In this document: positions 8,569-42,372 of the stretch, piece after piece
How the letters are laid out: every line of letters begins with the position of its first letter
Position numbering within the stretch: position 1 is the first letter of the stretch
Assembly: GCA_017623435.1 (NCBI GenBank)
Contig: JAGAPD010000023.1
Location: 1-64,000 of the forward strand
Source of the DNA: Clostridia bacterium
GTDB lineage: Bacteria; Bacillota; Clostridia; Christensenellales; Pumilibacteraceae
Direction of reading: 5' to 3'
Length of the DNA stretch: 64,000 nt
Made by a program: the position numbers and the translations under genes
Notes under the pieces: generated by a model
The model's input: the letters and a program-made list of their open reading frames with translations, nothing else
Told to the model about the DNA's origin: nothing
Database searches by the model: none

Positions 8569-8577
8569 AATAACTCC

Positions 8578-9456: not shown

Positions 9457-9489
9457 TTTATCATCTCCCGAGCACAAAGTGCTCATAAT

Positions 9490-10491
9490 TTACTTACTTA
9501 ATTTTGCTATAATTCTTTCAGCGATCTGAACCGCGTTGGTCGCAGCGCCCTTTCTGATGTTGTCTGCAACTACCCACATATTGATACCGCTGTCAACGCT
9601 GTCGTCAAGACGAACTCTGCCAACGAAAACCTCGTCGTGGTTTTCCGCCTCGAGCGCGGTGGGGTAAACGCCGTTAGCAGGATCGTCCATCAAAACGATA
9701 CCTTCCGCGTCAGCAAGCGTTTGCTTTACGCCCTCAAGCGTAACCGGGGAGTTAAATTCCACGTTTATGCTTTCGCTATGACCGTGGAAAACGGGCACGC
9801 GCACGGTTGTTGCCGTAATTTTAAGACTTTCGTCGCCCAAAATCTTTTTGGTCTCGAAAATCATCTTTTGTTCTTCCTTGGTGTAGCCGTTATCTAAAAA
9901 TACGTCGATATGAGGCAAGCAGTTACCAAAAATGGGCTTGGGGAACTTTTTGGGAGCAACGCCCTTAATTCCTTCCTCTAAATCCGTGTATCCGGCAACG
10001 CCCGCACCGCTTACCGCCTGATAGGTGGAGTAAACGATTCTTTTGATGCCGTACTTTTTGTGAAGGGGCGCAAGAGCAACTACCGCCTGAATGGTGGAGC
10101 AGTTGGGGTTAGCGATAATGCCGTTATTCCACTCGATATCGTTTGCGTTTACTTCGGGAACGACGAGGGGCACGGTAGGATCGGTACGCCATTGACTTGA
10201 ATTGTCAATAACGGTTGCTCCGCATTCAGCGAAAAGGGGAGCGAAAGCTTTGGAAGTGGACGCACCTGCGCTAAAAAGGGCGATATCCACCTTGGTGTCA
10301 CGAACGTTTTGTTCGTTAAGCTCGATAATAGTATATTGCTTGCCCAAAAACTCAATTTGTTTGCCAGCACTTCTCGCACTCGCGAAAAGGTAATAGTTTT
10401 CGACGGGCAAATTGCGCTCGGATAAAACCTGTAACATTTTTCTACCAACCATACCGGTTGCGCCAACGACGGCTACGTTGTATTTTTTCAT
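9490..10491 (-). CDS. asd: Aspartate-semialdehyde dehydrogenase
   Basis: Makes aspartate semialdehyde, the branch point for lysine/diaminopimelate, threonine and methionine. The 333-residue protein has the NADP loop GATGMVG near the N-terminus, catalytic Cys in NPNCST near residue 130, and the His of FHGHSE near 240. The start ATG (10489-10491) follows AAGGAG. It heads the operon asd-dapA-dapB and sits behind a lysine riboswitch and attenuator. Confidence 0.96.
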   Translation of the reverse strand: MKKYNVAVVGATGMVGRKMLQVLSERNLPVENYYLFASARSAGKQIEFLGKQYTIIELNEQNVRDTKVDIALFSAGASTSKAFAPLFAECGATVIDNSSQWRTDPTVPLVVPEVNANDIEWNNGIIANPNCSTIQAVVALAPLHKKYGIKRIVYSTYQAVSGAGVAGYTDLEEGIKGVAPKKFPKPIFGNCLPHIDVFLDNGYTKEEQKMIFETKKILGDESLKITATTVRVPVFHGHSESINVEFNSPVTLEGVKQTLADAEGIVLMDDPANGVYPTALEAENHDEVFVGRVRLDDSVDSGINMWVVADNIRKGAATNAVQIAERIIAKLSK

Positions 10492-10536
10492 AAAAATCTC
10501 CTTGTTAATATATGCGTAGAATTTAGTTGCCGACAT

Positions 10537-10576: not shown

Positions 10577-10605
10577 GCTGATATACGTGGCAGTATATAG
10601 AAATC

Positions 10606-10774
10606 AAATAATGTGCTCCATTCTCAAGAATGACAGTTGCAAGGTATTAGCCTTAACACCCAACGCGCTCGTTTTTCGGCAAGACAAAGTGCGCTTCGGC
10701 GATGATGCCCTTTCCCCGAAAACCTGATGCCGTGGGTAAAATCGGTTACTGATGCTCAACGCTCCTCATTATTT
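10606..10774 (-). ncRNA. Lysine riboswitch (L box)
   Basis: The minus-strand leader of asd closes with an 8-bp P1 stem, AAATAATG (complement of 10767-10774) with CATTATTT (complement of 10606-10613). Inside are L-box signatures: GAGGAGCG near the 5' end, CATCAGTAACCG, GGGGAAAGGG, ATCGCCGAAGCGC, and a CTTGAGAATGGAG close to the 3' end. Its place before asd-dapA-dapB fits lysine feedback. The call rests on remembered L-box consensus, not on a covariance search. Confidence 0.88.
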
Positions 10775-10782
10775 ACGGGAGT

Positions 10783-17747: not shown

Positions 17748-18476
17748 ATGGAAACAATGTTACAAACAGTCGTAATCGTGTTCATGCTCTTTTTATGTGC
17801 GCTTTGCTTGTTCGCAGTAGTTGTAATCGCACGCGACATCATCTACGAGAACGCAAAAATGCGCCGTGACAGAGAGAAGGAAAGAGCGCTTGAGAAGATG
17901 CAAGCGGCAGTAACCGCGCAACCGGTAAGCGAAGTAATCGAGCAACCCGTAGCGCCTGCCCCCGCGCCCGAGCCCACTCCCGAGCCTGAAGTCGTAGAAG
18001 AAGTAGTAGCTACGGCAGAAGAGGAAGAAGAGGACGAGAACGCAGTAGCCTTTTCGCGCCACACGCTCACGATGGAAGAGAAGTACGCAACGCTTTCTAC
18101 GGAATTCAAGCGTTATTTTGACGACATTGCAAAGCACGCGCTTGGCAAAGAGGGCGTAAAGGAATTCAAGTTTGGCAGTTCCTACGATTACAAGATCGGA
18201 TCTTACCGCGTAGTAAGAATGATGATCAAGCGTAGTGAAATCGTATGCGAATTCAAGTTTATCGACCGTGATTTCCGCACGTACGTAGGCTCGAACAGCG
18301 TCAAGATGAAACAGTCCGCAACGGCTGTCCGCGTTCTTGATGCAGCCGCAGTAGGCGTAGCGAAGGACGGTATCGACCTCGTTTGCACGCAGATTGCCGA
18401 AGACAAGCAGTACAAGAAAGAGCTTGCTAAGGAAAAACGCAGAGAAAAGCGCAAAGAGGCAAAAGAAAACGAGTAG
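17748..18476 (+). CDS. Membrane-anchored hypothetical protein
   Basis: A 242-residue protein. Residues 5-30 form a membrane helix (TVVIVFMLFLCALCLFAVVV), followed by a short coiled coil, a Pro/Glu/Val-rich linker (about 65-100, with repeated PAPEPTPEPE) and an unrecognised C-terminal alpha/beta domain (about 108-220). The last 20 residues are Lys- and Arg-rich. The C-terminal domain is probably cytoplasmic given the basic residues after the helix. AAGGAG precedes the ATG. It is the first gene after the G-tract promoter and stands just before the SipW/TasA-type locus. Confidence 0.78.
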   Translation: METMLQTVVIVFMLFLCALCLFAVVVIARDIIYENAKMRRDREKERALEKMQAAVTAQPVSEVIEQPVAPAPAPEPTPEPEVVEEVVATAEEEEEDENAVAFSRHTLTMEEKYATLSTEFKRYFDDIAKHALGKEGVKEFKFGSSYDYKIGSYRVVRMMIKRSEIVCEFKFIDRDFRTYVGSNSVKMKQSATAVRVLDAAAVGVAKDGIDLVCTQIAEDKQYKKELAKEKRREKRKEAKENE

Positions 18477-18567
18477 TCGCAAAGGCGTGGTAATCTCAAA
18501 AATACCACAGTAGATTCCGCTAACGCTCCACTCAGGATGACGCCGTTATTTGACAAACCCAAAAGGC

Positions 18568-18636
18568 AAGTAGAGGACACTCCCTCAACCAAGTAGAGGA
18601 CACTCCCTCAACCAAGTAGAGGACACTCTCTCAACA
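18568..18636. repeat. 23-bp tandem repeat, three copies
   Basis: AAGTAGAGGACACTCCCTCA-type units at 18568, 18591 and 18614, the third diverging at its end where it runs into element A. There are no spacers, so it is not a CRISPR. Confidence 0.85.
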
Positions 18637-18684
18637 GCCTCCCTTGTGTAAAGGGAGGGGGACCGCTTGCGGTGGAGGGATTGT
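18630..18684. repeat. Dispersed repeat A, copy 1
   Basis: About 55 bp with hairpin CCTCCCTT / AAGGGAGG and ACCGC / GCGGT. Two more copies lie at 19576 and 19866. Its last bases TTGTAA serve as a possible -35 box for the next gene. Confidence 0.85.
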
Positions 18685-18708
18685 AAACAAAAGCCGTTAG
18701 CGTATAAT
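18681..18708 (+). promoter_or_regulatory. Possible promoter of signal peptidase 1
   Basis: TTGTAA (18681-18686), 16-bp spacer, TATAAT (18703-18708). The -35 box is formed at the edge of repeat A. Confidence 0.5.
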
Positions 18709-18763
18709 CAGTAAATAAAAGGAAGAAATGTGGGATAATTGAAAATTATGAGGAAGGTGTAAA

Positions 18764-19519
18764 ATGGACGATACACAAAAACCGGATACGCAAAACGCCA
18801 CGGACAAAAAACTGAAAGTAAGTGGCATAGTGCTTAACGTAGTCGGAATAATATTATGTGTAATGCTAGTTCCCATACTTTTGATTAACTGCACACTGAT
18901 TATCAAGGGAATGATATATCCCGACGAAGTGCCCAGCTTATTTGGTCAAACGCCACTAATCGTATTGACCGAATCAATGGAACCTGACATAATGGCAGGC
19001 GACATAATCGTATGCGAAGAAATCGACGTGCAGCAGCTCAAAAAGGGAGACGTAATCGCCTTTTTCGATCCGGCAAGCAAAGGCTCGAGCATCGTAACGC
19101 ACAAGATAAACGAAGTGTATAAGGACAGCTCAGGCAACGTAAAAGAATTCGAAACGTACGGTATCAACAACAAAAACCTTGACGGCTCGCAGGCGTACGA
19201 CCGCTTGCACGTGCCGGCGGAAAACGTCGTGGGTATCTACCGCGGAACGCGAATCGCCGGAATGGGCCACGTAGCAATCTTTATGCAGTCCACTTGGGGC
19301 TTGATATTGTGCGTAGGCGTGCCCGTGCTCCTCGTAATCGCGTACGAAGTGCTCCGCCGTCGTATCAAGGACAAGCAAAGCAAGAGCGATATCGCCGATA
19401 AACAAAAGGATATCGACGCGCTCAAAGCCGAGCTCGAGGCGTTAAAAGCCCAACAGACTCAGTCCACCGACTCCCAACCCGATACGGAGAACAAGGAAAC
19501 GGAGAACAAGGACGAATAA
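18764..19519 (+). CDS. SipW-type signal peptidase I (first)
   Basis: A 251-residue signal peptidase of the S26B (archaeal/ER-like) class. A membrane helix spans about residues 18-48, the catalytic serine is S71 in TESMEPDI, and the expected catalytic histidine is H113 in IVTHKI; the Ser-His pair instead of Ser-Lys marks the SipW type. A second helix is near 172-195 and a coiled Lys/Glu tail ends the protein. GGAAGGTG precedes the ATG. The following locus encodes several proteins with SipW-type signal peptides, its probable substrates. It is distinct from the second peptidase at 23128. Confidence 0.9.
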   Translation: MDDTQKPDTQNATDKKLKVSGIVLNVVGIILCVMLVPILLINCTLIIKGMIYPDEVPSLFGQTPLIVLTESMEPDIMAGDIIVCEEIDVQQLKKGDVIAFFDPASKGSSIVTHKINEVYKDSSGNVKEFETYGINNKNLDGSQAYDRLHVPAENVVGIYRGTRIAGMGHVAIFMQSTWGLILCVGVPVLLVIAYEVLRRRIKDKQSKSDIADKQKDIDALKAELEALKAQQTQSTDSQPDTENKETENKDE

Positions 19520-19530
19520 TCTAACCCGTA

Positions 19531-19656
19531 ACGCAAAGGTTAAAAAACCTACCTTACCGTAGGGCAGGGGCTTGCTCCCTCAACAGCCTCCCTTGTGTAA
19601 AGGGAGGGGGACCGCTTGCGGTGGAGGGATTGTCAAACAAAAGCCTGTTAAGTAGG
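19531..19656. repeat. 126-bp direct duplication, copy 1 (contains repeat A)
   Basis: The stretch from ACGCAAAGG to GTTAAGTAGG is nearly identical to 19821-19946, exactly 290 bp downstream. It includes repeat A copy 2 (19576-19633). Confidence 0.85.
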
Positions 19657-19820
19657 CACGGAATAGTGTGTACGGCTTGTATCCCCACTTGTCATTCTGA
19701 ACGAAGTGAAGAATCTCAACGGCGTATGAACAAAATCGGCTTAAATGAACCGATTACGCATATAAACCTGTTAGATCCTTCGACAGGCTCAGGATGACAC
19801 CATAGTTTGACCAAAGTAAA
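19657..19820. repeat. Dispersed repeat C, copy 1
   Basis: About 160 bp beginning CGGAATAGTGTGTACGGC, containing TGTCATTCTGAACGAAGTG and GACAGGCTCAGGATGAC. A closely similar copy lies at 26522-26695. No reading frame is supported. Confidence 0.85.
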
Positions 19821-19946
19821 ACGCAAAGGCTAAAAAACCTACCTTACCGTAGGGCAGGGGCTTGCTCCCTCAACAGCCTCCCTTGTGTAAAGGGAGGGAG
19901 ACCGCTTGCGGTGGAGGGATTGTCAAACAAAAGCCTGTTAAGTAGG
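19821..19946. repeat. 126-bp direct duplication, copy 2 (contains repeat A)
   Basis: Second copy of 19531-19656, with repeat A copy 3 at 19866-19923. The two copies enclose element C and could recombine to delete it. Confidence 0.85.
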
Positions 19947-19964
19947 TAAGACCAAATCTTAACC

Positions 19965-20034
19965 GTAACGCAAAGGCTGTAGTAGCCTCCATCTGACGAG
20001 GGAGGTGGCACGCGCCAGCGTGACGGAGGGAGAG
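19965..20034. repeat. Dispersed repeat B, copy 1
   Basis: About 70 bp, GTAACGCAAAGGCTGTAGTA then CCTCC/GGAGG and CACGCG...CGTGACGG, ending GAGGGAGAG. Six copies lie in this window, all between 19.9 and 26.8 kb. Confidence 0.85.
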
Positions 20035-20078
20035 CAGGCAGAGCCTGTTAAGTAGGTGAGACCAAAATCTTAACCCAA

Positions 20079-20146
20079 AACGCAAATGCTGTGGTAGCCT
20101 CCATCTGATGAGGGAGGTGGCACGCGATAGCGTGACGGAGGGAGAG
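20079..20146. repeat. Dispersed repeat B, copy 2
   Basis: Same structure as copy 1 with CGATAG in place of CGCCAG. The preceding GCCTGTTAAGTAGGT segment is also duplicated, so a unit of about 111 bp is repeated in tandem with copy 1. Confidence 0.85.
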
Positions 20147-20206
20147 ACCTCAAAAAGCCCAAAAGGGAGAGACCTCAAAAAACCCAAAAGGGAGAGACAA
20201 CTCCCC
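20140..20206. repeat. 25-bp tandem repeat
   Basis: GGGAGAGACCTCAAAAA-type units start at 20140, 20165 and 20190 (the last partial), extending from the end of repeat B copy 2. Confidence 0.75.
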
Positions 20207-20253
20207 AAAAAACACAAAAACCAAGTTAATAACCGCGAAAACGGTTGTTATAT

Positions 20254-20400
20254 ATTTGTATTCTTCCCTCGGAAGCCACGTTTACGAGGGTGATGAATAT
20301 AAATTGTCGCGCAAATGCGTGATAAAAAACAAATGGGCGTTTGCCCGACAATTAAATCCCCTCTAAAAAAGGGAAGAATTTATGCCGAAAGGCAAATAAA
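20254..20400 (+). ncRNA. Structured 5' leader of the first TasA-like gene
   Basis: ATTTGTATTC (20254-20263) can pair with GAATATAAAT (20295-20304), with an inner CCCTC/GAGGG stem. AATTGTCG (20302-20309) pairs perfectly with CGACAATT (20346-20353), enclosing GGGCGTTTGCCC and a GCGCAAATGCG segment. The two outer stems share three bases, so they may be alternatives. CCCTC...GGG and GCCGAAAGGC hairpins follow before the AAAGGAG site. I cannot match it to a riboswitch class I know. Confidence 0.45.
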
Positions 20401-20418
20401 AAAAGGAGAAAAGAAAAA

Positions 20419-21222
20419 ATGAAGAAAAACAAATTTTTGAAACTTGCTTCCGGTTTGCTTGTTCTTTGCCTTCTTACGACGTGCGTAATCAGCACGACGT
20501 TCGCAAAGTACGTTACTAGCGATTCCGCTAATGACACCGCAAGAGTTGCAAAATGGGGCGTAACCGTTGCCGTTAAAGTTGGCGATAGTACTGAAACTGA
20601 TGCATTCTATAAAGAATATGATAACGGTACTAAAGTAACTGTTAAGTCTAATGATAAAGTAGTTGCACCTGGTACGGAAGGTACGCTTGCATCCTTCAGC
20701 ATTAAGGGTACTCCCGAAGTTGCACTTAATCTTAATGTTGCAATTACGAATACTGCAGAAGATGCTGATCAAGTTGATGTGTTCTTGAATGCAGCTGACG
20801 ACAAGTATTTAGATTGGACTACTGGTAAGGCTGACGATAAGTTTAACCTTGCAGCAACTTATTATCCTGTTGAATATACTCTTTACAAGGATAATGTGGC
20901 TGTAGATACGAGTGGAAATACGCTCGCTAAAGTTGTTGCATATCTTGAGGCTTTGAGTAGAGATTATTATATTTTGGATAATACTGCTGATGCTGACGCT
21001 TGGACTGCTTTGCTTGGTGATTATAGAATTGATTGGAAATGGGATTATGACCAAGCAGCGCCTAATGTAGGTCAGAATGACCAAGCAGACACTTTGCTTG
21101 GTAACATTGGCGTAGGCGGAGATTTTGCAAAGGATGCTGCTGGCAATGCTTTGGTTGATGGAGTTGATTACTCTCTTACCATCGATTTCGCTCTTAAGAT
21201 CACCGCAACCCAAATCGACTAA
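20419..21222 (+). CDS. TasA/camelysin-like secreted protein 1
   Basis: A 267-residue exported protein. The signal region has a basic start, a hydrophobic core at about 9-27 and the SipW-type junction TTFAKYVTSDS, followed by ARVAKWGVTV, which is typical of TasA-family mature starts. The mature part is beta-rich and acidic, has a VAPGTEG segment near residue 90 and repeated short Asp/Ala stretches. Proteins of this family form biofilm fibres or act as surface proteins. AAAGGAG precedes the ATG, and a structured leader lies upstream. Codons after residue 40 are unusually rich in A and T (ACT, GTT, GAT) compared with core genes. A hairpin follows the gene. Confidence 0.85.
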   Translation: MKKNKFLKLASGLLVLCLLTTCVISTTFAKYVTSDSANDTARVAKWGVTVAVKVGDSTETDAFYKEYDNGTKVTVKSNDKVVAPGTEGTLASFSIKGTPEVALNLNVAITNTAEDADQVDVFLNAADDKYLDWTTGKADDKFNLAATYYPVEYTLYKDNVAVDTSGNTLAKVVAYLEALSRDYYILDNTADADAWTALLGDYRIDWKWDYDQAAPNVGQNDQADTLLGNIGVGGDFAKDAAGNALVDGVDYSLTIDFALKITATQID

Positions 21223-21244
21223 TAACTAATTAAAAAATGAAAAC

Positions 21245-21286
21245 GGCTTATTCCTGTCCTAACGTGGCAAGGACGGGGAGCGAGCC
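21245..21286 (+). other. Intercistronic hairpin
   Basis: GGCT...CCTGTCCT pairs with AGGACGGGG...AGCC around a short loop. No T run follows, so it may be a processing or stability element that sets the level of the TasA-like mRNA apart from the next gene. Confidence 0.4.
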
Positions 21287-21388
21287 ATTTGCTCAGAAAT
21301 ATTTACAACTATTGTTAAATCTCGTTTAACCAACCTTTCGCGCACGCGTATAAATAAGGAAAAAACGAGAAACGCTGAAAAAGGAGAA

Positions 21389-22252
21389 ATGCAGTTCACG
21401 ACTATGAACGACGAAAAACAACCACAAGTTAATAGAAAGGAAGAACGCCGTTCGTGGGTGTGGATAATGCTAATGGTCAACATAGTATTCATCTTACTAT
21501 TGATGACTTTGGGCATAATCGCTCTTCAAGTCGGCAACAAACTGCCCGAGAACACGGACATTCTCTTCATCGTAGGCAAATCGCCGTCGGTAGAAGTGGG
21601 TGACAGCAAGAAGTGGGAGGCAGGACAAGAAGTAGATATTTTCAAAGCAAGTTACGTAAACGGACAAGGACAAACGACAGTTCTTTCGCAGGACGGTACG
21701 GCACTGATAGCGCCCGGCACTAAGACGGAATACAAGTTCAGTATGTATAACAACGGTAATATGGCGGTTGTGTACGAAACGGATATTGATTTCACGCTTA
21801 CGGTGGGTGACGAGTCGTTAAAGCAATATACTTTTCCGCTCAAAGTCAGACTGTATACCGAAAACGGCGCGTATATGATCGGGAGCAAGACCGATTACGT
21901 TCACGTCGAAAACGCAACCCTTTCCGCGCACGTCAGCCAACTGGGCGCAAACTCTTACGAGACGTTCGTTCTCGAACTTATGTGGGAGTTCGACGGTGGC
22001 AATGACGAACTTGATACGCTTTACGGCGACAAGGCTGTAGAAAGTGGCGTTTCGCTCACAATGGGCATCAATACCTACGCAGAAGAACACGTCGACCCGA
22101 CTGCGCAGGGTGGCACGAAGATCGAAGTAGAGGGCAACGAAGAATACGGCGGTACGATCCGCTGGTTGTGGCTCATTCTACTGTTTATCAACGCAGGAAT
22201 TCTTATTTTCTACGTTTCGTGGCTACTCAACAAAAGATTACGCAAGTGGTAA
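21389..22252 (+). CDS. Double-anchored membrane protein of the TasA-like locus
   Basis: A 287-residue protein with membrane helices at about 22-47 and 259-282 and an extracellular beta-rich domain between them. That domain contains an IAPGTKTEYKFSMYNN stretch resembling the APGT segment of the two TasA-like neighbours. There is no SipW-type signal junction. The start is uncertain: AAGGAG is only 2 bp before ATG 21389, and the next ATG (21404) is 17 bp away. By position and topology it may anchor or assemble the fibre, a role like TapA; that is inference. Confidence 0.72.
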   Translation: MQFTTMNDEKQPQVNRKEERRSWVWIMLMVNIVFILLLMTLGIIALQVGNKLPENTDILFIVGKSPSVEVGDSKKWEAGQEVDIFKASYVNGQGQTTVLSQDGTALIAPGTKTEYKFSMYNNGNMAVVYETDIDFTLTVGDESLKQYTFPLKVRLYTENGAYMIGSKTDYVHVENATLSAHVSQLGANSYETFVLELMWEFDGGNDELDTLYGDKAVESGVSLTMGINTYAEEHVDPTAQGGTKIEVEGNEEYGGTIRWLWLILLFINAGILIFYVSWLLNKRLRKW

Positions 22253-22290
22253 ATTCACTTGTCCAAAATTAAAAGGAGACTTTTATTATT

Positions 22291-23040
22291 ATGGAAAAGA
22301 AAAAACGTAAAAACAGAAAACCCCTTATCGTCGTTGCAATGCTCCTTATGGTTGCGTTGGTTGTCGGTATGGGCGCTATGACCTACTCGAGATACGTAAG
22401 TTCTTTTAACTCCGACGTTCAGCAAGCAACCGCAGCAAAGTGGGGATTTGTAGTAAATGCAAATGCAAATAATCTTTTTGGCACTCAATACAAAGGTACT
22501 ACTTTAGCAACTGTTAATGGTTCTGGAGATGTTGTTGTAAAGGCAAATTCTTCTCCTGCTACTAACATTGTTGCACCTGGTACGACTGGTTATATTACTA
22601 TCAATATTACTGGTGTTGCAGAAGTTAAGGCTGAACTTACTGTTACTGCAACTGATGTAGCAGAAATTGCTTACTTAGATTATAAACCTGTTGTATGGAC
22701 TTTGTATAATGACACCACGCCTGTAGTAGAGAATACTACTCTTGCGGATGCATTGTCTAAAATTGAAGGTACTGAAATTCCTGCTGGTACTCCTGCTGAT
22801 TACAAATACAAACTTGAATGGAAGTGGGTGTTAGGTGATGCTGGTAATACTACTAATAATATCAAAGATACTATTATTGGTATTAAAGCGTCTGGTGCAG
22901 ATTATGACGACGTTGCAGATACTCTTCTTGCAGATGGTACGAAGTTAAGCACGAAGGTTACGTCTGAAGGTGATTATACTGATGATATCCAAACTGTACT
23001 TAAGTTTAACCTTTCTATCAAACTCGAACAGGTTCAGTAA
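22291..23040 (+). CDS. TasA/camelysin-like secreted protein 2
   Basis: A 249-residue exported protein. A basic N-terminus (EKKKRKNRK) and a hydrophobic core at about 12-28 lead to the SipW-type junction TYSRYVSSF; the mature start reads TAAKWGFVV, matching ARVAKWGV of protein 1. A VAPGTTG segment near 90 and a WKW motif near 170 are shared with protein 1, so the two are paralogues. AAAGGAG is 12 bp upstream. As in protein 1, codon choice after the signal region is rich in GTT, ACT and GCA. A strong terminator follows. Confidence 0.85.
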   Translation: MEKKKRKNRKPLIVVAMLLMVALVVGMGAMTYSRYVSSFNSDVQQATAAKWGFVVNANANNLFGTQYKGTTLATVNGSGDVVVKANSSPATNIVAPGTTGYITINITGVAEVKAELTVTATDVAEIAYLDYKPVVWTLYNDTTPVVENTTLADALSKIEGTEIPAGTPADYKYKLEWKWVLGDAGNTTNNIKDTIIGIKASGADYDDVADTLLADGTKLSTKVTSEGDYTDDIQTVLKFNLSIKLEQVQ

Positions 23041-23062
23041 TTTTTAACGAAAAACAAAGATA

Positions 23063-23107
23063 AAAACTCCCTTCCTACCTAATAATAAAGGGGGAAGGGG
23101 GAGTTTT
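23063..23107 (+). terminator. Terminator after TasA-like protein 2
   Basis: AAAACTCCCTTCC pairs with GGGGAAGGGGGAGTTTT, giving a long stem ending in a T run. Confidence 0.8.
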
Positions 23108-23127
23108 GTCTTGTGACGGAGGACTAA

Positions 23128-23811
23128 ATGTCACTAAAAAAGGTCTTTGATATAACCAAAAAAGTTCTATCCATAGTAATATGGACGCTTTTTGGTATAG
23201 TTTTGACCGTAGTTGTGTGGCTCGCTGTAGATAAATTTATTATCGGTTCTCCCGTGCCTTCTATGTTCGGGTACGCTACGCTCACTATCGAAACGGGCAG
23301 TATGTCGGGCACGATCGAAGAAGGCGATATGATTTTAATCAAAGACACGGGTGAGTATAAGATTGGCGATATCGTTACCTTTTTGCAGGACGGCGACAAG
23401 ATTCCTACCACTCACCGCATTATCAATTACGACTCGGACGGTAATTTTATTACCCGTGGCGACGCTAACAACGCCGCCGACACTAAGCCCGTCACTAAGG
23501 ACGATATCATCGGCGAAGTTGTTGAAGTTTTCCCCAAGGTCGGTCATTTTTCCAACTGGGTGAAATCTGAAGGCTGGATTTATATCGTCGCTATCCTCGG
23601 TATCCTCGCGATCGGTTTCTGGATCTCAAAACCCGATGACGACGAGGACGACGAAGAAAAGACTGAGGAAAACGAGCAAACTTCCTCGCCCGATTCCCCT
23701 AACGACGAAAACCTCGAAGAAAAAGAAGAGGAAGAAAAAGAAAACGAGGAAAACAAGGAAGAAAAGGAAAACGAGGAAGAAAAGGAAGAAAAATCTTCCA
23801 CCGAAAAATAA
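23128..23811 (+). CDS. SipW-type signal peptidase I (second)
   Basis: A 227-residue S26B signal peptidase. Membrane helices lie at about 13-36 and 150-167. The catalytic serine is S58 in ETGSMSG, the histidine H96 in TTHRI, and RGDANNAAD near 110 supplies the conserved aspartate region. The last 55 residues are almost only Glu, Lys, Asn and Ser. GGAGG lies 6 bp before the ATG. Its closest partner is TasA-like protein 2 just upstream. Having two different SipW-type enzymes in one locus suggests separate substrates. Confidence 0.9.
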   Translation: MSLKKVFDITKKVLSIVIWTLFGIVLTVVVWLAVDKFIIGSPVPSMFGYATLTIETGSMSGTIEEGDMILIKDTGEYKIGDIVTFLQDGDKIPTTHRIINYDSDGNFITRGDANNAADTKPVTKDDIIGEVVEVFPKVGHFSNWVKSEGWIYIVAILGILAIGFWISKPDDDEDDEEKTEENEQTSSPDSPNDENLEEKEEEEKENEENKEEKENEEEKEEKSSTEK

Positions 23812-23884
23812 CCCGTACCGCAAAGGCTGTAGTAGCCTCCATCTGACGAGGGAGGTGGCGCGCGATAGCGTGACGGAGGGAGAG
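23811..23884. repeat. Dispersed repeat B, copy 3
   Basis: Same element as at 19965, here with CGATAG. It ends 8 bp before the DUF559 gene and supplies its GGGAGAG ribosome binding site. Confidence 0.85.
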
Positions 23885-23891
23885 ACCACGA

Positions 23892-24341
23892 ATGAAAGAG
23901 TATAACAAAACGAACGTAAAAGTGGCAAGAACTCTCCGCAAAAACATGACACCTTGGGAACGAAAATTGTGGTACGAGTATTTACGAAGTTACCCGATAC
24001 GATTTCAAAGGCAAAAAGTAATAGGCGAATACATAGCGGATTTCTATTGTGCAAAAGCGAGACTAATAATAGAGTTAGACGGCAGTGGGCACTACGAAGA
24101 AGAGCAGATCGAAAAGGACGCTAAACGAACGATCGATATAGAAAGAATGAACGTAAGCGTAATAAGGATAAGCAATTCAGACGTAGATAAGAATTTCAGC
24201 GGAGTGTGTGAATTCATAGACGAAGTAGTGAAAAACACTCTCCCTCAGACGCCTACGGCGCCAGCTCCCTCGACAGAGGGCGCCAACCGTAGCCAAGCTT
24301 TTACGAAAGGAAAAAACGAAAATTCGTACACAGACGTTTAA
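23892..24341 (+). CDS. DUF559 (Vsr-like) nuclease-family protein
   Basis: A 149-residue protein. Residues 8-115 carry the DUF559 core: LRKNMTPWERKLWYEYLRS, FQRQKVIGEYIADFYC and LIIELDGSGHYEE, with Asp/Glu residues of an endonuclease-like fold related to Vsr. A nuclease activity is likely but unproven for this family. The last 35 residues (from about 115) are encoded by sequence that looks like another dispersed repeat (CTCCCTC...GAGGGCGCC), so the natural end may have been extended. It lies between two direct copies of repeat B inside the fibre locus. Confidence 0.85.
   Translation: MKEYNKTNVKVARTLRKNMTPWERKLWYEYLRSYPIRFQRQKVIGEYIADFYCAKARLIIELDGSGHYEEEQIEKDAKRTIDIERMNVSVIRISNSDVDKNFSGVCEFIDEVVKNTLPQTPTAPAPSTEGANRSQAFTKGKNENSYTDV
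24238..24286. repeat. Repeat-like palindromic segment inside the DUF559 gene
   Basis: CTCCCTCAGACGCCTACGGC then GCCAGCTCCCTCGACAGAGGGCGCC-type sequence with CTCCCTC/GAGGG and GCC/GGC symmetry. It resembles the A and B elements and encodes the tail of the DUF559 protein. Confidence 0.5.
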
Positions 24342-24354
24342 CAAATTATTCTAA

Positions 24355-24426
24355 CCGTAACGCAAAGGATGTAGTAGCCTCCATCTGACGAGGGAGGTGG
24401 CACGCGCCAGCGTGACGGAGGGAGAG
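24355..24426. repeat. Dispersed repeat B, copy 4
   Basis: Same element as at 19965, directly after the DUF559 gene and in the same orientation as copy 3. Confidence 0.85.
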
Positions 24427-24516
24427 ACCTCAAAAAACAAAAGGGAGAGACAACTCCCCAAAAAAACTTTAACCACGTAAACAATTACGAAAAAATCTTA
24501 AAAGGAGAGAAGTGCA

Positions 24517-26394
24517 ATGAAAAAAATAATCAAATTCATAAAGCGCAACGTATTTTCGTGCACGTGTTTTCTTTTGGCGATAGCCGTGTGTCTGACTGGC
24601 ACATTTTCGTATGCAAGATACATATCGGTTGACTCGTACGACCGTAGCCCGGGCGCAGGCAGTTTCTCGTGCTCGGCGAACATCGACGGAGTCAGCGCCC
24701 TTTCCTTCACCAACACCGCATTCTGGGGCGGCACGACGAGTGAAGACAAAATCGCGATGAACGCGCTCCGTGCGATCGAGTTCAAGGTAAACAACTTTGA
24801 AGGCACGGGCAGTGATAAGAAAGTCAGCGAAGTCAAGATGAACTACCAGCTTATTTTCTCTGCACCCAAGAACTTTATTGAAAAGCTCGCGATACAGCTT
24901 TTCGACGATACGTCCACGGCGATTTTGCCCCAAATCGTATTACAAGACCTTGTCAAGAGTAGCGGAATTTACAACACCGCAAGTAGCGAAGACTTCAACG
25001 GCTCGCCTGCGACCGACCTTATTTTCACCGTGACCAAGAGCGGAAACGACTTTACGGCGACGGCAGGGGATATCAAGATCGAGATTGATGAAGTCAATAT
25101 TGAGATTGAGCAAGCGCTCCAGTACCGCGTTTGGGACGTAAGTGCACTTACGAACGAAACGAACAAAGTCGCTAATACCGAGGGTGGTAAACTTCTTCCG
25201 CCCCTCGAAGTCAAGTTCACGTCCGAAGTGACTTGCTACCGCATAAAGATTTCAATGCCCCAGTTCAAGTTTGATGCAGGCACGGAGCAGACGCGCGATT
25301 ACAGTTTGCGCCTCGTTCCCACCGCCACGCTCGAGGACGACCACCTCGGTGGTTACCTTATGGACGGCACGGAAAAACCCACTACGATTTACGCCGGTCA
25401 AACCCTCGGCGTCCAAACGGTAAAAGAGGCTATTTCCGATTATACCGACGAGGCTTGCACCAGCCTTATCCCCGATAGCGAGCAAATCGTCAACGTCCAC
25501 GGCGAACCGAAGAAGTATACCGTAGGAACGCCCATTACCGACTCGCCCCTTGATTATCCCCCCACGACGACAACGACTATTCAGAATTTACCAGATGAGA
25601 TATCTTCGTCGGGATCTCACGAGGCTGGAAACGTTGTTCCGGGAGCGACTTCTGAATTTTCTTCTTGGGTTATGTACAAAAGTAATGATGATGTCACTAC
25701 TAATGAAAATAATGCGTCTTATCGAACAAGAACTGCTACACAAACAGGAACAACGACGGTAACTATCACTAAAAAGGTTGATAGATATAACGAAATAAAA
25801 ACGTTATCTCAATCTACCGTACAAACCGTAACTACGCCCAAATCCGTAAATGGTAATACTTTTGTACTTCAAATTGATAGAAAAACAACGCTAAACGTTG
25901 CGTCAACTGAAACGACGGAATCTTATTTAACGAGTACTACCGTTCAAACTCAAAATTGGACGAGAACAGGAACGTATAGGCAAGATAGGGAAAGGACAGG
26001 AAGATATCCTAATTATACTTATTATTGGGGTGAATCATACCTACAAGGCAATTGGTCTGCTTGGACTAAAAGCGGTAACGTAGATGAAGAAACTACCGAT
26101 AGCGATACGAGAACGTATTTAACACCCCAAATAAATAATACTTCAACAACTACCGACAACACCGACACTTTTTTCCGTAAGATTATACGTTCTTACGAAA
26201 ATATTGATATTACGCTTACTTCGGTAAAACGTCAGGTGCAAGTAGGTACTGAATTCCAAACCGAAGAGTACACGAGTAGCACTGATGCTTTTGATCTTTT
26301 CGAAGGCGACGAGATTCAAAACTATTACTTATCGCAAAGTTATTCTAAAAACTACCCCCTAAAAGTCAACGTAATATTCGAACAAACACAGTAG
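24517..26394 (+). CDS. Large SipW-dependent secreted protein
   Basis: A 625-residue exported protein of unknown fold. The signal region (1-38) has a basic start, hydrophobic core and the junction GTFSYARYISVDS, like the TasA-like proteins. Residues 50-330 look like beta-sandwich material. A PPTTTTT linker near 348 leads to a Thr/Ser/Tyr-rich region (360-560) that lacks hydrophobic core residues and contains repeated short TVTITKK- and TQTGT-like runs. Codon use changes at about base 25580 toward AT-rich codons, so the second half may have a separate origin. AAAGGAG precedes the ATG. A surface adhesin or fibre component is likely. Confidence 0.8.
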   Translation: MKKIIKFIKRNVFSCTCFLLAIAVCLTGTFSYARYISVDSYDRSPGAGSFSCSANIDGVSALSFTNTAFWGGTTSEDKIAMNALRAIEFKVNNFEGTGSDKKVSEVKMNYQLIFSAPKNFIEKLAIQLFDDTSTAILPQIVLQDLVKSSGIYNTASSEDFNGSPATDLIFTVTKSGNDFTATAGDIKIEIDEVNIEIEQALQYRVWDVSALTNETNKVANTEGGKLLPPLEVKFTSEVTCYRIKISMPQFKFDAGTEQTRDYSLRLVPTATLEDDHLGGYLMDGTEKPTTIYAGQTLGVQTVKEAISDYTDEACTSLIPDSEQIVNVHGEPKKYTVGTPITDSPLDYPPTTTTTIQNLPDEISSSGSHEAGNVVPGATSEFSSWVMYKSNDDVTTNENNASYRTRTATQTGTTTVTITKKVDRYNEIKTLSQSTVQTVTTPKSVNGNTFVLQIDRKTTLNVASTETTESYLTSTTVQTQNWTRTGTYRQDRERTGRYPNYTYYWGESYLQGNWSAWTKSGNVDEETTDSDTRTYLTPQINNTSTTTDNTDTFFRKIIRSYENIDITLTSVKRQVQVGTEFQTEEYTSSTDAFDLFEGDEIQNYYLSQSYSKNYPLKVNVIFEQTQ

Positions 26395-26426
26395 CGGATA
26401 AAACCGTTAAGTAAGACCAAAGCTTA

Positions 26427-26499
26427 ACCGTAACGCAAAGGCTATAGTAGCCTCCATCTGACGAGGGAGGTGGCACGCGCCAGCGTGACGGAGGGAGAG
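26427..26499. repeat. Dispersed repeat B, copy 5
   Basis: Same element as at 19965, including the TTAACCGTAACGCAAAGGCT lead-in. Confidence 0.85.
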
Positions 26500-26521
26500 C
26501 AGGCAAAGCCTGTTTCGCAGG

Positions 26522-26695
26522 CGCGGAATAGTGTGTACGGCTTGTATCCCCACCTGTCATTCTGAACGAAGTGAAGAATCTAAACGGCGTATGAACAAAA
26601 TCGGCTTAAATAAACCGAATACGCATATAAACCCGTTAGATCCTTCGACAAGCTCAGGATGACACCGTAGTTCGACCAAAGTAAAACACAAAGGT
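26522..26695. repeat. Dispersed repeat C, copy 2
   Basis: Copy of 19657-19820 with about a dozen substitutions, again next to repeat B elements. Confidence 0.85.
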
Positions 26696-26696
26696 C

Positions 26697-26752
26697 GTGG
26701 TGGCCTCCATCTGACGAGGGAGGTGGCACGCGCCAGCGTGACGGAGGGAGAG
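26697..26752. repeat. Dispersed repeat B, copy 6
   Basis: Same element as at 19965 with a shortened lead-in. Confidence 0.8.
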
Positions 26753-26810
26753 ACCACCAAAGGTGCTTTCGGTAGGGGCTGGTGCTCACGACAGCCCGTA
26801 GGTAAAACCA

Positions 26811-26883
26811 ACTGTCATTGCGAGGAGCAACGTGCGTTGTCACTGTGAGCAACGCGAAGAATCTCGCACGGCGACGTGGCAAT
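26811..26883. repeat. Palindromic intergenic element (TGTCATTGCGAGG type)
   Basis: Begins TGTCATTGCGAGGAGCAACG and ends GCGACGTGGCAATCT, a pattern I know from dispersed intergenic palindromes in many bacterial genomes. It lies just before the ribosome binding site of the 1433-residue gene. Confidence 0.6.
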
Positions 26884-26917
26884 CTTAAAAAATCCAAAAA
26901 AGGAGGTTTATAAGTAA

Positions 26918-29900
26918 ATGAAAAAAATGAAATTACGCGAAAAAATAATGCTTATGTTTTCTTTAGCGCTTGTAAGCATCCTTTTCCTCGTGCCCACGTT
27001 TTCAAAATACGTAGCGCAAACGACCGCGCCTTTTGGTGACGAAGAAGACCTTGACTACACGGTAAACTCCGTATTTGAGGTAAAGAGCCAAAACGAACTT
27101 TTCGCGGCAATCAATCAGGGCTACACGTACGTTCAGCTTAGTAAGGACATTGAAAACCCCCTTATCGTAACGGAGCAGGCAAAAGACCTTAACAGCGACC
27201 TTATTATTGACCTTAACGGTATTGAAATTCAACGTAACGGACACGATCCTATACTTAATATTAAAGAAAATATTCGTCTTACCGTCGTTGATACTTCGAC
27301 TGAGCAAACGGGCGGACTTTACAATCCTATCGGCTCGGTATTCAACCTTGAGGGCGGAACGCTTACCGTCGTAACGGGAACGTTCGAAAGTGGTCCTCGT
27401 TATTCGGAATATTATTCCTATAACCATCAGGTGCTTAACGGCTCAAGCGGAAGTACGACGAAACGTACGCTCGTTGATCCAGCTCAAGAAGTAAAATTCT
27501 ATACGAATAGCGGTCAAACCGTCGTCACAAAGACTGCGCCTATAATTCGTTCGTACCCCACGGTTACGGGCGAAATCACCTATAACCACGGTAACCTTTA
27601 CTTTGACCACGAAGTAACTGGTGGAAATCACACTATAAAGCCCGATACTTATTGCTATTACCGTACGAGTGAGGACGAGGCGGCAACGGCTAACGACCCT
27701 GCAACTGCCGACTGGTACTACACATACTGGGTAGATGAAAATCATTATGAGTATGTAAGTGCAGAAAAGCCTACGGATACAGATTCTAAATATATCCAAG
27801 TTTTTATTTACGGTTACGAAAACACCATTGACGGCGCATCTAAAATAACTGCCCCGAAAGATTTCTATGCGGCAATTCAGATGCAAAGTGGTAAAATCGA
27901 AGTGCAAAACGGCGATTTCTTCTCTTACTTTGGCGTAAATACTACGGCTTGCGTTAACGCAAACGGTGGCGTAATTGACGTTAAAAAGGGTAACTTCTCG
28001 TCGCGTATTCCTAACGCCGAGTATTACACGAATTACGGCGTAGCAATAAAAGAAAAGGACTCCTTGGCTTTTGGCACGTCCTATTTCAATAACTACAACT
28101 GGGCAAACGAAGAGTTTACGGGCGGAGCAATCGCGCGTAAGGGTGAAAGTTTTTGTATTCTTAATAGTGGCGAGTCAGAAGTATCTATAGGCGAGGGTAA
28201 TTGTTATTCTTCTAATAACAACATTATCAGTATGCAAGGTGGCGGATCGCTTTCTATCGGCGGTGGTACATTCACAAAGAAAAACACCATTGAACTGAGT
28301 ACTAATTCTGATACGCGCGCGCCTGCAATTTATATGAAAGAAGGTCAGCTTGATATCAGTAATACCAATTATGATATTTACGGCAAATACGCATCGGCAA
28401 TTTATATGCTTGACGGCAAAATGACCGTAAATAATTCCACGTACAATATTGATGGAAGTAACACGATCGGTATTTATTCAGCCGTAGCAGGAGATGATAA
28501 CTTCATAGTAAACGATACTGACTTTACGCTTACTAACGGCGATAACCAAAATGGAATAATTGCCGTTAACGGTAAGGTGCAAGTAAGCAGTTCGGGTACG
28601 AACGAGATTGAAACTGACGGCGCAAACGGAGTAGGTATATACGTTTCTGACGGTGGATCGGTAAGTTCGACCAACTACACTTATACGCTTGACGGTACTA
28701 ATTCAAAAGGTATTCTCGCTGAAAGTGACGCCGCGGGTATTGACGTAACGGGCGGTAAGTTTACCATTACGGGCGATAATTCGTTTGGTATCGAATCACT
28801 TATTAGTGGCGACGACAAGTTCAACGTTACTGATGCAGATATAACGATGACTGGCGGCACGAAACAAACGGGTATTTATTCGGCAAACGGCCGTGTAAAC
28901 GTAAAATCTACTTCCGCTGCAACTATTAGTATTGCTGGAGCAGAAGGAAAAGGTATCCACGTTGCAAACGGTGGATCGGTAAGTTCGAACGGATATAGTT
29001 ATACTTTACAAGATGATAATTCTTATGGTATTTACGCTATTGACGGTGACGTTGGCGTAGTTGACGGTAACTTTGACCTTACTGGTGAAAACCAAATCGG
29101 TATTTACGCTAATAACGGTGACGTTAACGTAAATAGTTCGTCTGCAGATATTACCGTTACGGGCGCAAACGGAAAAGGTATTCACGTGGAAAACGGTGGA
29201 TCGGTAACTTCAACGAATTATGCCTATACGCTTAACGGCGCAAGTTCAAAAGGTATTTACGCTGCAACTGATGCGTTGTCAATCAACGTAACAGGTGGTC
29301 AGTTCAATATTCAGGGTAATAGTTCGTTCGGTATTGAATCGTTTCTTAGTGGTACTGATAAATTCACCGTTACTAACGCGAATATCACGATGACAAACGG
29401 AACAGCCCAAACGGGTATTTATTCGGCAAACGGCCGTGTAAACGTAAAATCTACTTCCGCTGCAACTATCAGTATTGCTGGAGCAGAAGGAAAAGGTATC
29501 CACGTTGCAAACGGTGGATCGGTAAGTTCGACCAACTACGCTTATACGCTCAATGGTGCAACTTCGTACGGCATTTATTCTGAAGGCGGACTTATTCAGG
29601 TAAGCGGTGGTGATATTGAGCTTAAAAGCAATGTTGCTTGTTATGGTATTTATGCAGTAGATACTACTTACGATAGTGACGCAAGCATAAAAAATCCTTC
29701 ACTTGAAATTTTGATTGATAATGCAAATATTGAAGTAGGATTTGATGAAACTGATAATAAATCAGGCACGGTTCAAGCATCTATCGGCGTACTTCTTGAA
29801 ACAAATAATATTGATAACTATATTAGTCTTGAAAACACGACTATATCGTGTTTCGAAGTAGGTGTTTCCGTTGGTGGTGGATACCTTGATATTAGTGGTT

Positions 29901-31219
29901 CTGGTGGTATTAACACTAAAAAAGCATCTGCTATTGTTGTAAATGGTGGTAGTATTACGATTGATGAAAGTAGTAATTTCGCAATCACTTCTTCAAATAC
30001 GAGAAGTGAATATAATGAAAATGCTACTACCTATCACAATAATATTTATAATATAACCATTCCTAGACTAAACGGTACTACGATAAATAACGTTGCTTAT
30101 CAAAATACTGACGGTATTTACGTAAGTGGAGGATCGTTCTCGTCTAACGGACAAGTAAGCATTACGCATACGGGATTGCAAAATTCTACTGATTACGACG
30201 ACTATACTGGTGTAGTTATTAATAGTTATGCTGTCCGCGTGCTTGGTGGATCGGTAGATATTCTTCGTGGAGCTATAACGGCAGTTGCTGGTGGCGGTAT
30301 TTATGCTGGTGAGCAAGACGGTGTCCTTGGAAGTATTACTATGGGTAATTCCTCTACTACGAGAGACCAAATTACCGTAAAAGCAAACGGTAACACGACT
30401 AACGACGAAACCTACGATGCAATTGGTACATGGATAAGTAACGGTTGGACAAATGAAAAGAGTGTTACTGGTGGTCACGCTATTGAACTTGCTGGTGGTA
30501 GTATTACCATTTGGGAAGGATATTACGAGGCGCAGTTTGGTAACGGCGTTGCCGCAAACAGTAGTGGTAATATTAATATTTATAACGGTGAGTTTTATGG
30601 TTGGATGAATGACTCGGATGGGGATATGATTCCTAACGGTACGAACAACAGTAAATCTGGTCCTTCGGCGCATTATGGTCTTAAAGTTATAGGTGGCGCA
30701 ACGGTCAATATCTTTAATGGAATGTTCGATGGTGGTAACGGTGGTGCTTTCGTAACTGGTATAGACGAATTTAACAGTCGATACGATATAGACGGTAGTT
30801 TGGCAAGCGTATATATTTACAAAGGCATTTTTGGTGGCTCTGGTAAGGGAGCAAAGGCGTTGGACGGATTTAACGTGTACGATTATTCGAGAGTAATTTT
30901 CGGCGCATATCGCGCAACAGGTTCTGCCGTTGATGCGCAACTGATTACGCCGTTTACGACTAAAGAAGAGTATAATAATGCTATCGTTATAAACGCAACG
31001 AATGCAACTATAGCAACTAACCCGATTACAGACAGTACTACGAAAATAAGTTCTGATGTATATGTTTACTACGGAAATTATGATAATAATAGTAACACTG
31101 GCGTTTGGAATGCTAATGGAACGATAAGAGCATATAACACAAGTGCAACTATTGGTTATACTATTTATAAGGGTGCAGGCACTCTTCAAAACAATAACAC
31201 AGCGCAGTTCTATGCATAA
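26918..31219 (+). CDS. Giant SipW-dependent beta-helix surface protein
   Basis: A 1433-residue exported protein. The signal region (1-32) ends in the SipW-type junction PTFSKYVAQTT. From about residue 70 the chain shows many short beta-strand turns rich in Gly, Asn, Ser and Thr, including repeated GIYS, GGS, and N-G motifs, as in right-handed beta-helix proteins. Residues about 510-870 contain four related modules with the phrases NSFGIES, QTGIYSANGRVNVKS and GKGIHVANGGSVSS. Two 121-bp DNA copies inside are nearly identical. No LPXTG or membrane anchor is seen at the C-terminus. AAGGAGG lies 12 bp before the ATG. An adhesin or polysaccharide-binding matrix protein is likely. Confidence 0.85.
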   Translation: MKKMKLREKIMLMFSLALVSILFLVPTFSKYVAQTTAPFGDEEDLDYTVNSVFEVKSQNELFAAINQGYTYVQLSKDIENPLIVTEQAKDLNSDLIIDLNGIEIQRNGHDPILNIKENIRLTVVDTSTEQTGGLYNPIGSVFNLEGGTLTVVTGTFESGPRYSEYYSYNHQVLNGSSGSTTKRTLVDPAQEVKFYTNSGQTVVTKTAPIIRSYPTVTGEITYNHGNLYFDHEVTGGNHTIKPDTYCYYRTSEDEAATANDPATADWYYTYWVDENHYEYVSAEKPTDTDSKYIQVFIYGYENTIDGASKITAPKDFYAAIQMQSGKIEVQNGDFFSYFGVNTTACVNANGGVIDVKKGNFSSRIPNAEYYTNYGVAIKEKDSLAFGTSYFNNYNWANEEFTGGAIARKGESFCILNSGESEVSIGEGNCYSSNNNIISMQGGGSLSIGGGTFTKKNTIELSTNSDTRAPAIYMKEGQLDISNTNYDIYGKYASAIYMLDGKMTVNNSTYNIDGSNTIGIYSAVAGDDNFIVNDTDFTLTNGDNQNGIIAVNGKVQVSSSGTNEIETDGANGVGIYVSDGGSVSSTNYTYTLDGTNSKGILAESDAAGIDVTGGKFTITGDNSFGIESLISGDDKFNVTDADITMTGGTKQTGIYSANGRVNVKSTSAATISIAGAEGKGIHVANGGSVSSNGYSYTLQDDNSYGIYAIDGDVGVVDGNFDLTGENQIGIYANNGDVNVNSSSADITVTGANGKGIHVENGGSVTSTNYAYTLNGASSKGIYAATDALSINVTGGQFNIQGNSSFGIESFLSGTDKFTVTNANITMTNGTAQTGIYSANGRVNVKSTSAATISIAGAEGKGIHVANGGSVSSTNYAYTLNGATSYGIYSEGGLIQVSGGDIELKSNVACYGIYAVDTTYDSDASIKNPSLEILIDNANIEVGFDETDNKSGTVQASIGVLLETNNIDNYISLENTTISCFEVGVSVGGGYLDISGSGGINTKKASAIVVNGGSITIDESSNFAITSSNTRSEYNENATTYHNNIYNITIPRLNGTTINNVAYQNTDGIYVSGGSFSSNGQVSITHTGLQNSTDYDDYTGVVINSYAVRVLGGSVDILRGAITAVAGGGIYAGEQDGVLGSITMGNSSTTRDQITVKANGNTTNDETYDAIGTWISNGWTNEKSVTGGHAIELAGGSITIWEGYYEAQFGNGVAANSSGNINIYNGEFYGWMNDSDGDMIPNGTNNSKSGPSAHYGLKVIGGATVNIFNGMFDGGNGGAFVTGIDEFNSRYDIDGSLASVYIYKGIFGGSGKGAKALDGFNVYDYSRVIFGAYRATGSAVDAQLITPFTTKEEYNNAIVINATNATIATNPITDSTTKISSDVYVYYGNYDNNSNTGVWNANGTIRAYNTSATIGYTIYKGAGTLQNNNTAQFYA
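28868..28988. repeat. In-frame 121-bp repeat, copy 1
   Basis: Encodes residues about 651-690 of the giant protein and matches 29411-29531 with one difference seen. The copies are 543 bp apart, which is 181 codons. Confidence 0.9.
29411..29531. repeat. In-frame 121-bp repeat, copy 2
   Basis: Second copy. Recombination between the copies would delete or duplicate 181 codons and keep the frame. Confidence 0.9.
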
Positions 31220-42347: not shown

Positions 42348-42372
42348 AAGCCAAGGTGTTTAGCCTTGGCTT
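42348..42372. terminator. Bidirectional terminator
   Basis: AAGCCAAGG and CCTTGGCTT form a perfect stem with A and T runs on both sides, between the amidase gene and the convergent transposase; it overlaps the last codons of the latter. Confidence 0.85.

Follow-up and report, generated by a model that had tools for sequence, protein, structure and literature searches.

A proposed sortase-independent surface-fibre cassette with two SipW-type signal peptidases, TasA-like proteins and a giant beta-helix protein in Christensenellales

The TasA fibres of Bacillus subtilis assemble by donor-strand exchange (PMC9674648). In Bacillus cereus, the TasA/CalY fibres are SipW-dependent (PMC4292775), and in Clostridium perfringens, the sipW-bsaA polymers need SipW and not sortase (PMC7395162). 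Each SipW fibre locus in these reports has a single peptidase and lacks a beta-helix partner (PMC9674648, PMC4292775, PMC7395162). In the literature searched, which was largely open-access, no account was found of a two-peptidase cassette or of the P6 and beta-helix families described below.

The window analyzed here is the whole stretch of 64,000 nucleotides at positions 1-64,000 of contig JAGAPD010000023.1, and all coordinates below are window positions. Secreted TasA-like proteins are designated as TAS1 or TasA1, and membrane TasA-domain proteins as TAS2 or TasA2, the one in the window being D. TasA-A and TasA-B are the TasA-like proteins on the SipW1 side and the SipW2 side, respectively, and BH is the beta-helix protein. 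Every open reading frame (ORF) listed in an earlier note on this DNA was found at its position. The features of the locus are as follows.

17748-18476, + strand: 242-aa protein with an N-terminal transmembrane (TM) segment, a charged linker and a C-terminal domain; relatives lie upstream of SipW1
18764-19519, + strand: SipW1, S26B (SipW/ER-type) signal peptidase, 251 aa, Ser71/His113; matches TIGR02228 and falls in its own clade
20419-21222, + strand: TasA-A, TasA-like secreted protein, 267 aa, probable SipW1-side cargo (AlphaFold model, fold comparison, trees)
20503-20514, + strand: signal junction A/KYV of TasA-A (residues 29-32), with the presumed cleaved bond; A[RK]Y in 37/37 TasA1 relatives
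21389-22252, + strand: D, membrane-held TasA-type domain, 287 aa, with no SipW junction; proposed fibre base (profile match, topology)
22291-23040, + strand: TasA-B, TasA-like secreted protein, 249 aa, SipW2-side cargo by its clade; SRYV junction at 22387-22398
23128-23811, + strand: SipW2, S26B signal peptidase, 227 aa, Ser58/His96; matches TIGR02228 and falls in its own clade
23892-24341: DUF559 nuclease-like gene inside the cassette, flanked by repeats
24517-26394, + strand: P6, secreted protein, 625 aa; ARYI junction at 24613-24624; N-terminal part similar to the TasA-like set (hhalign)
26918-31219, + strand: BH, right-handed beta-helix surface protein (predicted model), 1433 aa; SKYV junction at 27002-27013
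28591-29582, + strand: tandem duplication of 543 bp that extends the middle of BH (families D2/D3, 77% identical)

The locus shares with tapA-sipW-tasA of B. subtilis an S26B/SipW peptidase beside secreted cargo of the presumed beta-sandwich kind, signal junctions of one class, the presence of a helper protein and the lack of a sortase. The B. subtilis operon, however, has one peptidase and one fibre subunit, lacks a membrane-held TasA domain, P6 and a giant beta-helix, and its cargo has no detectable sequence similarity to the proteins in the window. The earlier description of the locus as more complex than tapA-sipW-tasA is appropriate: besides two distinct peptidases and several cargoes with matching junctions, it encodes a TasA-like domain held in the membrane and a giant protein of the beta-helix type. 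In B. cereus, two TasA-like paralogues both need SipW and an accessory protein is present, as in the cassette, but a single SipW serves both paralogues, CapP, the accessory protein, resembles a chaperone, and the descriptions include no beta-helix protein (PMC4292775, PMC13082335). The sipW-bsaABCRSD operon of C. perfringens, compared here by its description, is clostridial, needs SipW for export and polymerization of the filament protein, uses no sortase, and includes the accessory secreted proteins BsaB, BsaC and BsaD; it differs in having one SipW, an in-operon two-component regulator and no described beta-helix (PMC7395162).

Genome contigs were scanned with an alignment of the beta-helix protein, and 61 loci were found from metagenome-assembled genomes (MAGs) of Clostridia/Firmicutes, mostly from animal gut. 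The named hosts are Candidatus Borkfalkia, Protoclostridium, Coproplasma and Gallimonas, which we take to belong to Borkfalkiaceae in GTDB; NCBI taxonomy places Borkfalkia in Christensenellaceae of the order Christensenellales. Profile annotation revealed the exact order SipW1-TAS1-TAS2-SipW2-P6-BH in 37 loci, and most of the others are variants or are cut by contig ends. The P6 gene is directly upstream of the BH gene in nearly all loci, and the TAS2, SipW2, P6 and BH genes overlap or abut, with median gaps of -4, -23 and -4 bases. The clade of the window (W, L042, L043 and L045) has additional TasA-like genes. A second arrangement, P6-BH-TasA-like-D-SipW2 with a SipW2-type peptidase only, was found from seven loci (L034, L036, L037, L065, L076, L090 and L100). 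The cassette is also present in other families of the order (genomes G236, G283 and G348). Its distribution is patchy: it was found from 16 of 74 genomes of the family, and not from the only further member of the genus. Incompleteness of the MAGs may be behind part of this patchiness. In 16 genomes bearing the beta-helix gene, every match to the TasA-like profile is inside the cassette and none is outside. The earlier note had proposed a search for co-occurrence of these genes in related genomes, with scattered genes counting against its reading, and co-occurrence was observed; chance neighbourhood is ruled out by the 61 loci. Two further loci (L031 in genome G009 and L030 in genome G035) have two SipW genes and TasA-like genes without the beta-helix or P6 gene, and may represent the two-peptidase module reduced to the fibre.

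The two peptidases had been assigned to S26B with the Ser/His pairs S71/H113 and S58/H96, and both the model scores and the conservation agree with this. They score 74.2 and 85.2 bits against the ER/archaeal-type model TIGR02228 (curated cut-off 51.85), and 83.9 and 74.1 bits against the Bacillus SipW equivalog NF046067, far below its cut-off of 190 bits. Thus, by these scores, both belong to the SipW superfamily of the S26B type, outside the Bacillus equivalog. In both, the catalytic pair is Ser/His instead of Ser/Lys. Among 42 SipW1 relatives, S71 is conserved in 39 and H113 in 38, and S58/H96 is conserved in 48/48 SipW2 relatives. In a tree of 112 S26B sequences, SipW1 and SipW2 stand apart, with 9 label changes against 52 in shuffles, and the lone peptidase of the second arrangement groups within the SipW2 side. 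By this tree, the SipW1 clade and the SipW2 clade are both old, and each keeps its place in the locus; the trees are quick ones with SH-aLRT support only, and trace positions rather than peptidase specificity. SipW1 relatives were found from 40 of 81 genomes (that of the window and 80 relatives), often two per contig, and a scan of viral contigs with SipW1 yielded no match. A third S26B peptidase of the same genome is at a contig end with no cargo in view (G000:C1:58786-59310; L039 8787-9323).

The four exported proteins TasA-A, TasA-B, P6 and BH match no Pfam or NCBIfam family above the cut-off. Their junctions AKYV, SRYV, ARYI and SKYV, recognized earlier, are all present and constitute the SipW-like junction [A/S][K/R]Y[V/I]. 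The strict motif [ASG][KR][YF][VTSIA] is present in 37/37 TasA1, 46/58 P6 and 51/61 BH proteins, and the looser motif x[KR][YF] in 37/37, 52/58 and 57/61, respectively. As the background, flanking ORFs with a hydrophobic N-terminus were used, and the junction is far above this background because only 1 of these 66 neighbouring ORFs has the strict motif. The membrane TasA2 proteins, which are the relatives of D, have it in 1/37 and lack it in 36/37. The consensus of the TasA1 class is L-G-[S/T]-T-F-A-[R/K]-Y with the core A-[R/K]-Y in 37/37; the junction is mostly T-G-V-T-F-[S/A]-R-Y in P6 relatives and S-L-T-x-[A/G]-R-Y in BH relatives. AKWG, taken earlier for the mature start, corresponds to residues 44-47 of the 267-aa protein, around 13 residues past the A29-K30-Y31 junction. 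Judged from its position, it is a conserved N-terminal stretch within the mature protein, around 13 residues in.

The AlphaFold model of TasA-A from 54 sequences has a pLDDT of 73.5 and a pTM of 0.66. Among 993 chains compared with this model, the TasA fibre 8aur ranks first over 149 residues at 6.1 A, with a Z of 4.8, where Z < 8 can reflect a common arrangement only. The TasA structures 8aur, 5of2 and 5of1 rank 1, 3 and 4 with weak Z of 4.0-4.8, and the lower ranks include other strand-complemented pilins such as FimG. Foldseek alone gave FimG as the best match to TasA-A with an E of 0.03, and none below. PF12389 (Peptidase_M73) has no match anywhere in the genome, the B. subtilis control being positive, and the TasA-family NCBIfam models have no match among the 54 members. 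The TapA model TIGR04087 matches 2 of the 54 (E 9.5e-4). A search of PDB with the TasA-like profile by hmmsearch returned 0 hits. With hhalign, the TasA-like and D profiles gave non-significant E of 0.15 and 0.25 against TasA, whose reference sequence is identical to that of 8aur, and the D match is confined to a stretch with the "PG" motif (IAPGM/LKPGD), which makes it a lead and not a test. On the gene level, the SipW-type junction together with an adjacent SipW gene is a TasA-family feature present in the TasA-like proteins. The fold comparison lends weak support to a TasA-like fold of TasA-A. Homology to TasA is weak for the two proteins described earlier as TasA-like paralogues, which have no sequence match to TasA; since Z is under 8 and no sequence method finds TasA, they are better described as working like TasA than as being TasA.

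D, described earlier as a doubly anchored protein with a similar segment, has TM segments at residues 26-44 and 262-280, and its profile matches the secreted TasA-like set with an E of 1.9e-9. In canonical loci, D relatives carry a single TM ahead of around 170 residues of the TasA-type domain. Double anchoring is thus a trait of the window's clade, and it is the membrane-held TasA-type domain that is general among relatives. The D relatives have around 100-520 residues before the TM, presumably cytoplasmic, with weak matches to beta-flower/PRC-barrel. In loci L046-L099, this TasA2 extension is highly variable in length and includes a conserved RRYDAVKNAFL...LFLALDPK domain ahead of the TM.

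Relatives of the 242-aa protein are directly upstream of SipW1 in L020, L042 and L045 (E 1e-67 to 1e-80), and also adjoin other SipW genes in L032, L033 and L027. Within the window's clade, this protein is by gene order a partner encoded upstream of SipW1. It shows collinear but non-significant similarity to the cytoplasmic extension of TasA2 proteins (hhalign E 0.011, 3.9% probability), and HMMER gave no match between it and the extension of D. It may be a detached cytoplasmic extension of D, a fusion idea based on this non-significant similarity.

P6 is related through its first 90 residues to the TasA-like set (hhalign E 3.8e-11, 89 columns), a match that overstates the evidence on fold because the signal peptide is included. 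Its C-terminus ends like those of TasA-like proteins.

The fold of the giant protein, named earlier as a beta-helix, is borne out by structure prediction. The model of residues 1-1200 has a pLDDT of 85.2 and a pTM of 0.75. Residues 661-1199 match Vag8 with a Z of 32.1 over 392 residues, and the Vag8 and pertactin passengers are similar to the C-terminal half. Tailspikes and AlgE4 match the model with a Z of 24-29, the values for residues 50-600 being 26-29, and this part also resembles PL6 lyases and GH110. A parallel right-handed beta-helix is thus confidently predicted for BH. Pfam revealed no credible family among 35 BH members, with one spurious match in one member. Conservation is seen in the N-terminal 350 residues and in the C-terminal region. 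The part at residues 50-600 is conserved best, with a mean identity of 47-57% in residues 51-150, and has R106, D125, D243 and K454 as invariant residues. The middle (around 550-850) is poorly shared by relatives, and the duplicated part is missing from most of them. This poorly shared middle and the 543-bp duplication indicate that the length of the stalk changes by rung duplication. The long right-handed beta-helix adhesin fold is common to autotransporter passengers (Vag8, pertactin, Fap2). Autotransporters, however, use an outer-membrane barrel, whereas BH has a SipW-type signal and is encoded in a sortase-free Clostridia genome with sporulation genes. In L034 (4390-8030), the beta-helix gene is split into ORFs of 139 and 1046 codons by a frameshift or an assembly error.

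The earlier note had proposed separate peptidase-cargo pairs. In the SipW2-only loci, TasA-like proteins are only of the B type, joining TasA-B of the window (branch support 98), and A-type proteins adjoin SipW1. As the SipW2-only loci carry only B-side TasA-like proteins, the client of SipW1 is likely to be TasA-A. Judged from their gene content, SipW2 alone must handle three cargoes in those loci, namely TasA-B, P6 and the beta-helix protein. The pairing of SipW1 with TasA-A therefore stands, but SipW2 would have several clients. From co-occurrence and trees, we infer a division of labour between the two peptidases; a strict one-peptidase-per-cargo scheme is ruled out by the three cargo types of the SipW2-only loci.

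The locus is probably a dedicated sortase-independent surface-fibre cassette working like the SipW/TasA fibre systems. No sortase was found in the 94%-complete genome. We infer the following scheme for export, cleavage, polymerization and the roles of the proteins. TasA-A, TasA-B, P6 and BH would be exported by Sec through their SipW-type signal peptides, and the S26B peptidases would trim them before the [R/K]Y start, SipW1 acting mainly on TasA-A, and SipW2 on TasA-B, P6 and BH. Trimming would free an N-terminal strand, and the TasA-like beta-sandwich proteins would polymerize by donor-strand exchange, by analogy with TasA. D, which has no cleavage junction and would keep its membrane segment, could anchor the fibre base to the cell, mostly with a cytoplasmic extension beneath it in the relatives. 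P6 may link to the fibre or start it. BH may be an adhesin or a glycan-binding accessory with its stalk length altered by rung duplication; its placement at the tip or the side is a guess, as BH has no evident partner domain. A more specific version is tentative, and we consider it rather doubtful: the two dedicated peptidases would separately release shaft subunits and accessory or adhesin subunits so that proteolysis sets the assembly order, a TasA-type protein that spans the membrane and has a cytoplasmic domain would form the base, and the giant SipW-processed beta-helix would be joined via its freed N-terminal strand. Christensenellales would thus have a pilus with an adhesive tip that involves neither sortase nor usher nor outer membrane.

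A role of the cassette in the spore coat is unlikely, and less likely than a surface fibre. TasA was once named as a spore-coat protein, Spo0A and SpoIVA are present in the window's genome, and 18/19 beta-helix-bearing genomes have a SpoIVA match. Genome G348 (96% complete), however, has the cassette (L101) without SpoIVA, so SpoIVA is not obligatory for the cassette; the match in G283 is only fragmentary and weak, and a membrane-held D that includes a cytoplasmic domain is more in keeping with the cell surface than with the spore coat. Slightly less probable still is a surface polysaccharide-processing apparatus, in which the beta-helix protein would be an enzyme (of the lyase, epimerase or glycosidase type) scaffolded by the TasA-like proteins. 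The similarity of residues 50-600 to tailspikes, AlgE4, PL6 lyases and GH110, and the position of the invariant R106, D125, D243 and K454 in the best conserved N-terminal part, would fit such an enzyme, but no Pfam catalytic family is present in the 35 BH members, the C-terminal half is similar to the Vag8 and pertactin passengers, and a fold in common does not show activity.

It is quite improbable that the genes encode independent SipW-dependent secreted proteins, merely co-located and forming no joint structure. The gene order does vary, as in the P6-BH-TAS-TAS-SipW2 loci, but one gene set with overlapping genes recurs in tens of species, and TasA-like genes are nowhere else in the 16 genomes. 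Under the preferred reading of a surface-fibre cassette, uncultured bacteria of animal guts have a far more elaborate version of the SipW/TasA principle than Bacillus and the one pathogenic Clostridium from which it is known, and their two peptidases are kept as distinct lineages. The cassette provides named, testable candidates for how gut Christensenellales hold to their habitat. The loci with one and two peptidases constitute a natural experiment on the cargo specificity of SipW peptidases.

REP-like palindromic repeats with the CCTCCCTTGTGTAAAGGGAGG core are clustered in the intergenic gaps of the locus (18626-20217, 23793-24448 and 26408-26774); the core has 14 copies in the genome, 3 of them in the locus. 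A REP-associated tyrosine transposase at 42360-42920 on the - strand (NF047646, 80.5 bits against a cut-off of 80) is a candidate mover of these repeats. The DUF559 gene at 23892-24341, unmentioned in the earlier note, is judged to be a passenger because it lies between repeat copies and outside the conserved gene set. In L021 (6076-6462), a similar-looking DUF559-like gene is between SipW1 and TasA-A, and this different site suggests repeat-associated movement. The DUF559 gene thus looks like a repeat-associated passenger. Elsewhere in the window, a lysine riboswitch (10603-10777, - strand) is upstream of ORFs at 7834-10536 resembling genes of the lysine pathway. Away from the cassette, 45380-47956 encodes a protein of 858 aa whose core is transglutaminase-like and whose N-terminus has a hydrophobic stretch.
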